From NCBI GenBank assembly GCA_008638415.1, contig VWVT01000001.1:186001-250000 (forward strand): a stretch of 64,000 nt of DNA. The letters are read 5' to 3'. Below the pieces are notes generated by a model, which had not been told where the DNA came from, made no database searches, and was given only the letters and a program-made list of their open reading frames with translations. Positions within the stretch are counted from its first letter, which is position 1. Each line of letters opens with the position of its first letter. The DNA is from Nocardiopsis sinuspersici. Lineage in GTDB: Bacteria; Actinomycetota; Actinomycetes; Streptosporangiales; Streptosporangiaceae. Shown here one piece after another: positions 29,886-52,029 of the stretch. The position numbers were made by a program, and so were the translations under genes.

Positions 29886-29940
29886 GTGATCCTGTACTCA
29901 CGGCGGGGCCGGGCGGGACGCGCTACAGGTACGGGACCGC
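29886..29940. repeat. Degenerate copy of the galE-galK palindrome
   Basis: The left arm, GTGATCCTGTACTCACGGCG, matches the left arm at 50732 with scattered changes, and the right arm, CGCTACAGGTACGGGACCGC, matches 50770-50789. Nearly all differences are transitions that replace A/T with G/C here. In RNA, many changed pairs remain Watson-Crick or G-U. Confidence 0.6.
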
Positions 29941-30167
29941 CGCGAAGGAGACCTCCTGGTTCACACCGGCGACGCCTCCGGCCGGTCCACCGACCGGTGG
30001 GGCCGAAGATCCCGCCCTCCTCGACGGCAAGGGCACATCGTCGACGGCGGCCTTCTCCCCGTGGCGCTCGTGCGGGTTCCCGGCGTCGGTGGTCGGCGTG
30101 TCCCGGGCATCGCCCGGAGGGGTGTCCCGCGGACCGCCCGCACGGCCACGGGACCGGCGGATCGCGC

Positions 30168-47873: not shown

Positions 47874-48668
47874 ATGCTGGCTGCGCAACGGCAGGAGCTG
47901 ATCCTCGAACAGGTGCGGCGCGCCGGGGCCGTGCGGGTCGCCGACCTCGTCGAGAGCCTCGCCGTGTCGGACATGACCGTGCGCCGCGACCTCGACGCCC
48001 TGGAGAGCCGGGGCGCGCTGCGCAAGGTGCACGGAGGCGCCGTCTCCTCGGACGGCGCCCGCACCGAGGAACCCGGCTTCGAGGCCAAGTCCACCCGCCA
48101 GGAGGACGAGAAGCACGCGATCGCCCGGGCCGTCGCCGAACTGGTCGAACCGCACAGCGCCGTAGGCCTGTCCGCGGGCACCACCACCGCCACCGTCGCC
48201 GGGTACCTCACCGACACTCCTGGGCTGACGGTGGTCACCAACTCCCTGCGCGTGGCCGAGGTGTTCTACCAGGCCGCCCGCCCCGACCAGACCGTGGCGC
48301 TCACGGGCGGCTTCCGCACGCCCTCCGACGCGCTCGTGGGCCCGCTCGCGCTCGCCTCCGTCCGCGGCCTCAACCTGGACACCCTCGTCCTGGGCGTGCA
48401 CGGCATGCAGGAGCGCGCCGGGTTCACCACCCCCAACCTCATGGAGTCCGAGACCAACCGGGCCCTGGTGGAGGCCGCCGCCTCCCTCGTGGTCGCGGCC
48501 GACCACAGCAAGTGGGGCACGGTCGGCATCAGCACCATCGCCCCGCTGAGCCGCTGCGACGTGCTGGTCACCGACTCCGGCATCGACCGGACCGCACGGG
48601 CCGCCCTGACCGAGCACGTGGGCCACCTGATGGTCGCCGACGTCCGACCGAGGAAGGAGGACGGATGA
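47874..48668 (+). CDS. DeoR-family repressor of galactose genes
   Basis: A 264-residue sugar-operon repressor. The N-terminal winged helix carries the family signature VRVADLVESLAVSDMTVRRD and RKVHGGAV. The C-terminal DeoRC sugar-phosphate-sensing domain has LSAGTTTATVAGYL and VVAADHSKWG. The ATG at 47874 has GGGGGGCGG upstream. Its stop overlaps the galT start (ATGA), so it is translated with the Leloir genes. A sugar phosphate such as galactose-1-phosphate or tagatose phosphate may be the effector; that is inference. Confidence 0.93.
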   Translation: MLAAQRQELILEQVRRAGAVRVADLVESLAVSDMTVRRDLDALESRGALRKVHGGAVSSDGARTEEPGFEAKSTRQEDEKHAIARAVAELVEPHSAVGLSAGTTTATVAGYLTDTPGLTVVTNSLRVAEVFYQAARPDQTVALTGGFRTPSDALVGPLALASVRGLNLDTLVLGVHGMQERAGFTTPNLMESETNRALVEAAASLVVAADHSKWGTVGISTIAPLSRCDVLVTDSGIDRTARAALTEHVGHLMVADVRPRKEDG

Positions 48669-49747
48669 GGAGGACCTCCGCGCGTCTGGCGGACGGCCGC
48701 GAGATCGTCTACTTCGACGAGGGCGACACCGTCCGCGAACCCGCACCGGACCTGCGCGACCTCCCCCCGTCCGCGACGGGCGCGGAGATGCGCTTCGACC
48801 CCCTGCTGCGCGAGTGGGTGGTCGTGGCCTCGCACCGCCAGGGCCGCACCCACCTGCCGTCCAGCCACGACTGCCCGCTGTGCCCCTCCGCGGACGGACG
48901 GCTGACCGAGGTCCCGGCCGCCTCCTACGACGTGGTCGCCTTCGAGAACCGCTTCCCGTCTCTGGTCGCCGACGACGGCCGGCCCCTGGAGGAGGTCGGG
49001 GAACTGGAGCCCTCCCGGCGCGTGGCCGCGGGCCGCTGCGAGGTCCTCGTCTTCGGCTCCGACCACGGCGCGTCCTTCGCCGACCTGTCCCCCGAGCGGG
49101 CGCGCACGGTCATGGCCGCCTGGGTCGACCGGACCGAGGCGCTGTCGGCGATGCCGGGTGTGGAGCAGGTGTACTGCTTCGAGAACCGGGGCCCCGAGAT
49201 CGGGGTGACCCTGCACCACCCGCACGGGCAGATCTACGCCTTCCCCTTCGTCACCCCTCGCACCCGGCGCGTGCTCGACTCCGCCGAGGAGTACCGCGAG
49301 CGCACCGGCGGCGACCTGTTCGCCGACGTGCTGCACGCCGAGCAGAAGGCCGGGATCCGGGTGGTCGCCCGGACCGAGCACTGGACGGCCTTCGTCCCGG
49401 CCGCGGCCCGCTGGCCCGTGGAGGTGCACCTGTACCCGCACCGCCGGGTGCCCGACCTGCCCGCGCTGTCAGAGGACGAGCGCGAGGACTTCGGCCACCT
49501 GTACCTGGATGTGCTACGCCGCTTCGACGCGCTCTACGACGCGCCCCTGCCCTACATCTCCGCCTGGCACCAGGCGCCCGTGCGCGACCGGCGCGCCCTC
49601 GCCCGCCTGCACATGGAGCTGTTCTCGGTGCGGCGCGCGCCGGGCAAGCTCAAGTACCTCGCCGGGACCGAGTCCGGCATGGGCGCCTTCATCAGCGACG
49701 TCGCGCCCGAGACCACCGCCCAGCGCCTCCGGGAGGCCGCACCGTGA
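48665..49747 (+). CDS. galT: Galactose-1-phosphate uridylyltransferase
   Basis: A 360-residue enzyme that transfers UMP from UDP-glucose to galactose-1-phosphate (Leloir step 2). The active-site His motif is TLHHPHGQIYAF. The zinc site includes CPLCPS near residue 72. Other signatures are VVAFENRFPSL and the late EVHLYPHRR. The start overlaps deoR and the stop overlaps galE, so the three form one coupled unit. Confidence 0.96.
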   Translation: MRRTSARLADGREIVYFDEGDTVREPAPDLRDLPPSATGAEMRFDPLLREWVVVASHRQGRTHLPSSHDCPLCPSADGRLTEVPAASYDVVAFENRFPSLVADDGRPLEEVGELEPSRRVAAGRCEVLVFGSDHGASFADLSPERARTVMAAWVDRTEALSAMPGVEQVYCFENRGPEIGVTLHHPHGQIYAFPFVTPRTRRVLDSAEEYRERTGGDLFADVLHAEQKAGIRVVARTEHWTAFVPAAARWPVEVHLYPHRRVPDLPALSEDEREDFGHLYLDVLRRFDALYDAPLPYISAWHQAPVRDRRALARLHMELFSVRRAPGKLKYLAGTESGMGAFISDVAPETTAQRLREAAP

Positions 49748-50706
49748 GACTGCTCGTCACCGGCGGCGCCGGATACGTGGGGAGCGTGGTGACCGCCCTG
49801 CTGCTCGGGGAGGGCCACGAGGTCACCGTGCTCGACGACCTGTCCACCGGGCACGCGGACGCCGTCCCCGAGGGCGCCCGGCTGGTGGTCGCCGACCTGC
49901 ACGAGGCGGCCGACGTGCTGGACCCGTCCGTGGACGCCGTCCTGCACTTCGCCGCGAAGTCCCTGGTGGGCGAGTCGGTGACCGCCCCGGAGAAGTACTG
50001 GCGCACCAACGTGTCGGGGACCCTGGCGCTGCTGGAGGCCGCGCTGCGCCACGGGGTGCGGCGGCTGGTGTTCTCCTCCAGCGCCGCCGCCTACGGCGAT
50101 CCCGGATCCGACGCGCCGATCGGCGAGACCGCCCCGGCGGTGCCCGCCAACCCCTACGGTGCGACCAAGCTCGCCGTCGACCACATGCTGGAGTCGTGGT
50201 CGGGGGCCCACGGACTGGGCGCGGTGAGCCTGCGGTACTTCAACGTGGCCGGTGCCCACCTGGGGGCGGGCGAGCGGCACGACACGGAGACCCACCTGGT
50301 GCCGAACCTGCTGCGGGTGGCCGCCGGCGGGGGCGGGAGCGCCAAGGTGTTCGGCACCGACTACCCGACCCGGGACGGGACGGCGGTGCGCGACTACCTG
50401 CACGTCGCCGACCTGGCCGAGGCGCACCTGCGCGCCCTGGAGCACGTGCGGCCGGGGTCCTTCCGCGTCCACAACCTGGGGACGGGCGGCGGGCACAGCG
50501 TGCGCGAGGTGATCGAGGCCGTCCGGCGGGTCACCGGCCGCCCGGTGCCCGTGGAGGACGCCCCCCGCCGCGCCGGCGACCCGGCCGTCCTGGTCGCGGC
50601 CAACGACCGGGCCCGCCGGGAACTGGGCTGGGAACCGGTGCGCACGCTCGACGAGACCGTCGCCGACGCCTGGGAGTTCGCCCTCTCACGCCGGGCCCCG
50701 GCCTGA
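49744..50706 (+). CDS. galE: UDP-glucose 4-epimerase
   Basis: A 320-residue extended short-chain dehydrogenase that interconverts UDP-galactose and UDP-glucose. The NAD motif is VTGGAGYVGS, the catalytic Tyr-Lys pair is in NPYGATKLAVDHML and the Ser is in FSSSAAAYG. It is slightly shorter than the 330-340 residues typical of GalE. The GTG at 49744 overlaps the galT stop. A long perfect palindrome begins 26 bases after its stop codon. Confidence 0.96.
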   Translation: MRLLVTGGAGYVGSVVTALLLGEGHEVTVLDDLSTGHADAVPEGARLVVADLHEAADVLDPSVDAVLHFAAKSLVGESVTAPEKYWRTNVSGTLALLEAALRHGVRRLVFSSSAAAYGDPGSDAPIGETAPAVPANPYGATKLAVDHMLESWSGAHGLGAVSLRYFNVAGAHLGAGERHDTETHLVPNLLRVAAGGGGSAKVFGTDYPTRDGTAVRDYLHVADLAEAHLRALEHVRPGSFRVHNLGTGGGHSVREVIEAVRRVTGRPVPVEDAPRRAGDPAVLVAANDRARRELGWEPVRTLDETVADAWEFALSRRAPA

Positions 50707-50731
50707 CGAGGAAACGGACCGGCGCCCCGGC

Positions 50732-50789
50732 GTGATCTTGTACTTATAGCGAGGTTCGGCGCCGAACCTCGCTATAAGTACAAGATCAC
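50732..50789. repeat. 58-bp perfect palindrome between galE and galK
   Basis: Two 29-base arms, starting GTGATCTTGTACTTATAGCG and ending with the complement, meet at 50760/50761 with no spacer and no mismatch. The outer part is AT-rich for this genome. As RNA it would form a very stable hairpin inside the gal transcript; as DNA it could form a cruciform. A diverged copy lies at 29886-29940. Confidence 0.95.
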
Positions 50790-50889
50790 CGCAGGCCAAA
50801 CCTCGCGTGTCACACCCGCAACAGTTGCGGCCAGCCCGGGACGACCGAACGAAGAACCGAACCAGCAGTCGAACAGGGAGACAGGACGC

Positions 50890-52029
<1,140 letters not shown>

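Follow-up and report, generated by a model that had tools for sequence, protein, structure and literature searches.

The window, a 64,000-nucleotide stretch of the genome of Nocardiopsis sinuspersici that was analysed as a whole, contains the genes galT, galE and galK, all identified by NCBIfam models with scores above the cut-offs. A large inverted repeat and a conserved tail lie between galE and galK:

48665..49747, plus strand: galT (TIGR00209)
49744..50706, plus strand: galE (TIGR01179)
50732..50789, no strand: palindrome, the hairpin core (sequence, inverted-pair list and fold)
50784..50838, plus strand: conserved repeat tail, which includes the counterpart of the right-hand end repeat (tail model R1 and alignment to the tail consensus)
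50890..52029, plus strand: galK (TIGR00131)

A preceding sequence-only reading had described a perfect 58-bp palindrome at this position, and the re-examination confirmed it: the two 29-nt arms match without mismatch or spacer. The 4-bp overlap of galT and galE and the 183-bp gap between galE and galK are likewise as that reading had given them. The palindrome ranks first among the 19 inverted pairs found in the window, where the next-longest perfect palindrome has 16-nt arms, and its GC content is 48% compared to 72% for the window. Allowing up to three mismatches, the arm sequence matches nothing in the window but the two arms themselves, and it was found in none of 100 shuffles. Folded as RNA, the palindrome is predicted to form 27 pairs at -47.2 kcal/mol (z -14). 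A terminator U-tract, that is, a stem followed by a T run, was not found between 50500 and 51000, and the region scanned in this search contains no promoter match. Elsewhere in the window, positions 29886-29990 hold a second, decayed copy of the repeat, whose stem (GATCCTGTACTCACGGCG...) contains mismatches and whose tail scores 29.2 bits at 29949-29990.

Copies, anatomy and stem types of the repeat

The arm was searched in the source genome and in its relatives, and dispersed copies were found. In the source genome (6.15 Mb in 46 contigs), 15 occurrences of the arm with no more than three mismatches were found at eight places, seven of which are facing pairs, and a reversed-pattern control gave no match. 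Besides the window copy, three of these places are perfect palindromes, of 57 bp (with one unpaired centre base), 60 bp and 62 bp. Arms were detected in 10 of 60 genomes, the source genome included, all of them among the 37 that belong to the window's genus; the reversed-pattern control was again empty. A tail-only model yielded 36 matches in the source genome and at least 132 in one relative (G029), and at E <=0.01 it matched 26 of the 40 genus genomes, the source genome included. At E <=1e-5, 11 of 121 genomes of the order match, all within the genus, and under stricter filters the repeat was seen in none of the 92 order genomes outside it. Within the samples searched, the repeat is confined to the window's genus. 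All these assemblies are drafts, from which repeats are often lost.

In the named GTDB collection, a search for paired 14-nt arms retrieved 47 palindromes in 45 loci, hosted only by Nocardiopsis, Streptomonospora nanhaiensis and a strain filed as Glycomyces fuscus. The latter record (TRM 49117, NYMS010000xx, e.g. L048 and L054) matches the same-genus genome G003, and its filed name looks wrong. Perfect symmetry is the exception in the family, because just one of these 47 palindromes is perfect over at least 54 nt. The plasmid and phage collections contained no match to positions 50650-50900, and the four Rfam 15 matches to the region all fall below the curated gathering score. Among the literature matches listed, no description of the repeat family was found, and it apparently has no name as yet.

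Alignment of 44 copies together with their flanks revealed a polar unit consisting of an imperfect left end, a hairpin and a tail of about 50 nt; copies were excluded if their tail could not be recognised or a locus end was too close. The left end reads TAGYGCGGTGACCGGAAAGGTTC in the best copies and the tail terminates in its counterpart, such that complete copies are polar units of about 150 bp bounded by end repeats. The tail of the window copy is well kept and covers positions 1-55 of the 57 in model R1 (46.8 bits). Several stem sequences exist. A second one, GATCTTGCTCCCAGTGGCAC..., occurs in the source genome, and a third type, in which 28 of 29 positions pair, was found in G022 and G062.

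Covariation between the arms was assessed on 47 of the 86 tail matches, a set of chosen loci and not a random sample, from which duplicates and matches without a stem side had been excluded. In 32 of these 47 tail-anchored sites, at least 16 of the 22 outer positions pair. For type-1 stems (30 sites, selected on the left arm only), complementarity is preserved in 33 cells with a change on both sides, compared to a mean of 14.3 and a maximum of 24 in 2000 shuffles, a procedure that leaves the kinship between copies in place in this and all other compensated-change counts. Another 61 type-1 cells mismatch, and pairing amounts to 17.8 of 22 positions within copies and 16.4 across copies. The nine type-2 stems gave a compensated count of 8 versus 5.3, which is within chance (reached by 301 of 2000 shuffles), and eight sites fit neither type. 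The aligned sequences indicate that arm changes are compensated in type-1 stems.

Filled and empty sites in relatives

galK could be located in 37 of the 40 genus genomes, and the galE-galK junction was read in the source genome and in 30 of 36 others. In none of these 30 genomes does the junction carry the repeat or a comparable inverted repeat. The gap measures 51 nt in G019 and G017, and galE and galK overlap in several other genomes. The best empty site is that of G024, relative to which the window is longer by 143 nt, a segment containing the palindrome and the tail. The similarity between the two flanks leaves the precise edges of this segment ambiguous:

50706..50723, plus strand: left member of the imperfect direct repeat, identical to 50849-50866 at 14 of 18 positions
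~50711..50853, no strand: 143-nt segment, filled in the window and empty in G024 (G024 comparison)
50849..50866, plus strand: right member of the imperfect direct repeat (window versus G024)

Both members of the 18-bp direct repeat resemble one and the same stretch of the empty site. Since the left member aligns to the G024 sequence, it probably belongs to the host and is no end repeat. A direct repeat of this quality is equalled by 53 of 2000 shuffles; it is suggestive of a target duplication, which would be unlike the 2 bp of IS630, or of chance. A candidate left-end remnant at 50704-50733 (p 0.0035) was rejected, its bases matching the empty site of G024. In the comparison with G024, the window copy has neither a recognisable left end repeat nor a visible TA duplication around it. 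With its tail side kept and its left side unrecognisable, the window copy is best described as a truncated relative of the family and not as a complete MITE, and its mode of arrival is therefore deduced from the family. Close to the corresponding locus in G019 (L094, C1), a copy with a different stem sits just downstream of galK.

Ten copies of the source genome were queried, eight of which were examined in the relatives fetched (L006 and L300 were left out). L175 and L176 have no aligned left flank in relatives, and L299 and L008 are partly uninformative. L301 is absent from the matching site in G019, and L003 is common to both genomes. G003 and G029 retain a short tail-like piece at the L004 site, which therefore seems to reflect loss in these genomes and not a clean empty site. 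L008 is present at the matching position in G003 and, with compensated arms, in G001, the two among eight relatives in which both of its flanks align. G017 and G027 have a decayed stem at the L010 site; in G003, G004 and G019 the repeat was not seen there. From these two sites, individual copies may serve the host, an argument that does not extend to the gal copy. Arms lying 1.5 kb apart in G024 and G011 had been considered as the ends of one insertion sequence; this was rejected, each being a separate palindrome.

Ends shared with insertion sequences

A search with the left-end pattern retrieved two full elements that have the same ends as the repeat. One of them (L286 in G061) measures 1242 bp and encodes a 388-aa IS630-family transposase (NF033545, E 5.5e-53), and in the other (L285 in G001, 1244 bp) the transposase frame is split in two pieces. 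The ends are common to complete 154-bp copies of the repeat in G022 (L287) and G062 (L288). L285, L286 and L287, three of these four complete elements, are flanked by C-TA...TA-G, a pattern not present at L288, which has a T on the left. Among the 44 aligned copies, CTAG stands exactly at the left edge in seven and at the right edge in six, and it is missing at the edges of most. Within the source genome, L008 and L010 are hairpins without end repeats. Another genome contains a 123-bp unit (L289, G015:C112:10265-10387) that shares the IS630-type ends and lacks a palindrome.

According to the title of their 1991 work, Tenzen and Ohtsubo reportedly found that the IS630 transposon prefers the TA in CTAG. 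Relatives of the L286 transposase (E <=1e-20) were found in 10 of 40 genomes. None is present in the element-rich genomes G024, G003, G017, G004 and G019, G029 and the source genome contain fragments only, and thus no element-rich genome harbors an intact relative. Insertion at a duplicated TA is reported for an IS630-family transposase in an excerpt of PMC2170065. At the level of the family, an IS630-type MITE with a long hairpin core is likely a good explanation.

A second, longer form was found at five distinct loci. Here, the palindrome lies between 19-nt ends (GRGCGTCCGCCAGYAGGTG), with a total length of 197-212 bp. These ends also delimit a 967-bp IS5-family element (NF033580, E 4.4e-38) of which G003 has five contig-end copies, and close relatives of its transposase (E up to 1e-60) occur in one of 40 genomes, again G003. 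This IS5-family element wrapping the long form is unrelated to the IS630 type. Three of the five G003 copies border directly on a palindrome arm, each at the same point (GTACTTA / TTATAGC). The long form L246 occupies this point in another palindrome and has TTA on either side; in the other four long forms no clean duplication was seen. The records L246 (1212-1423) and L241, L242 and L243 (~968) thus have the long form or the IS5 element at the same TTA inside palindrome arms. Judged by sequence, the palindrome looks like a landing site of the IS5-family element. Further pieces interrupting palindromes in G019, G017 and G024 (L030 ~1520-1623; L387 ~1-110; L031 ~1530-1620; L177 ~1900-2067) resemble what we take to be the end of an IS30-type transposase gene.

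Placement, origin and known counterparts

Placement relative to genes was analyzed with gene calls from the author's own codon-score script. All 55 copies lie clear of the called genes. Leaving out three copies at contig edges, 28 of 52 have convergent neighbours compared to 79 of 356 background pairs (p 4.8e-6), and three of 52 have divergent neighbours compared to 70 of 356 (p 0.007). In 19 of the 47 copies from the named collection, a stop codon coincides exactly with the unit edge. Of the 47 stops near the copies 20 are TAG, versus 48 of 277 others (p 2e-4). The distances of 41-45 and 50-53 used in the placement tests were chosen after the data had been seen. The 15 CTAG sites of the window comprise two in coding sequence, five stop codons and eight intergenic sites. 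A transposase that targets CTAG would give rise to this placement. Selection acting against insertions ahead of genes would equally do so, as argued for pneumococcal repeats, whose convergent location is expected of tolerated mobile repeats (excerpt of PMC3049150). REPs as well lie mostly between convergent or unidirectional genes according to the part of PMC3733652 at hand.

The palindrome is probably the core hairpin of a repeat that is dispersed within the genus and limited to it. This repeat is likely a MITE of the non-autonomous IS630 type that inserted between galE and galK in this lineage. Counting against this reading are the missing left end repeat and TA duplication of the window copy, the lack of intact relatives of the L286 transposase in the element-rich genomes, the hairpins L008 and L010 with no end repeats and the many copies whose edges have no CTAG. 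The mobile palindromic element of the sequence-only reading thus gained support from the dispersed copies, the end repeats shared with insertion sequences and the repeat-free sites in relatives. An IS630-type transposase would move the family in trans, at the TA of CTAG. In DNA of 72% GC, CTAG sites would lie mostly outside coding sequence, some of them being TAG stops, and copies would consequently end up at gene 3' ends. The window copy would have inserted between galE and galK and later lost its left end. Where transcribed, the predicted 27-pair hairpin may separate the galE from the galK mRNA. It would do so through cleavage by RNase III or protection of the 3' end rather than classical termination, and galK is predicted to be translated from its own start site.

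Several other accounts were weighed against this MITE origin. A broader and rather unlikely one regards the hairpin as a self-preserving mobile module that is carried within two transposase frames unrelated to each other (IS630 with CTAG and IS5 with TTA) and serves as an IS5 landing pad; hairpin-templated copying would keep its arms alike, whole stems would turn over with self-complementarity kept, and settled copies would be co-opted as host 3'-end signals. Somewhat less probable still is a host terminator or mRNA 3'-end signal of any origin whose hairpin is kept by selection. The intergenic and convergent placement, the compensated changes in type-1 arms and the in-place recurrence of L008 in G001 and G003 argue for it. 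The lack of a U-tract, the relatives without a repeat at the gal site, the decay or absence of the L010 repeat in five relatives and the convergent placement expected of tolerated mobile repeats in any case argue against it. For the earlier proposal of a termination or processing signal, the clustering of copies at gene 3' ends speaks in favour and the missing U-tract against. The large operator proposed along with it found no support and was set aside, the copies adjoining many different genes.

Of similarly low probability is the arrival of the window copy by another transposase, for instance the IS5-family one of the long form, or by an untraced route. The long forms at five loci, one with TTA on both sides, together with the missing left IS630-type end and the imperfect 18-bp direct repeat of the window copy, would be in line with such a route; the window copy, however, has no IS5-type 19-nt end, the sole match to the end pattern in the source genome being C3:486441, and close relatives of the IS5 transposase are limited to G003. 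A REPIN moved by a RAYT (Y1) transposase is very improbable. The intergenic hairpin doublet with compensated arms is as in REPINs, as far as the excerpt of PMC3116915 goes, and the source genome has two Y1_Tnp matches. This reading is disfavoured by the IS630-type ends of complete copies and by the distribution of PF01797 (Y1_Tnp), which occurs in 13 of 40 genomes, the source genome included, and in none of the repeat-rich genomes G029, G003, G024, G017 and G019. A recent chance inverted duplication at one place had been named as the likelier origin if relatives lacked the repeat and the genome had no second perfect copy. The outcome was split: the 30 relatives read lack it, yet the genome has three more perfect copies. 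Because of these copies chance duplication is very unlikely, to the point of being negligible, and the recurrence of the arms in 10 genomes with an empty control refutes it.

An eye-catching palindrome is thus explained as part of an apparently unnamed repeat family, present in part of the genus with few to more than 100 tail matches per genome. CTAG targeting at TAG stops offers a possible reason for the occurrence of such repeats at gene 3' ends. The gal locus is a natural case of a known operon split by a strong predicted hairpin in one lineage, and since an empty relative is at hand, the effect on galE and galK is measurable.

Known systems resemble the repeat in different respects. RUP of pneumococcus, an IS630-Spn1-type MITE, is likewise short, non-coding and present in many copies, with IS630-like ends, a TA target and an excess between convergent genes (excerpts of PMC2229807 and PMC3049150). 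Sequence and host group differ, and the repeat described here has a long central palindrome that comes with several stem sequences, edges at CTAG, and another form bounded by IS5-type ends. The Correia elements or NEMIS of Neisseria share a size of about 107-155 bp, end repeats and a terminal TA (excerpt of PMC2229807), and they are bound and either cut or protected by RNase III (excerpt of PMC2649163). Their sequence is different, and RNase III cutting of the gal hairpin is inferred from them by analogy only. REPINs are intergenic hairpins with compensated changes too (excerpt of PMC3116915); the present family differs in its complete copies with IS630-type ends and in the lack of a Y1 transposase in five element-rich genomes. 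Finally, QMITE2 of Coxiella burnetii is a MITE whose palindrome is itself the target of an insertion sequence (excerpt of PMC10969869), the visitor being IS1111 there and an IS5-family element here.
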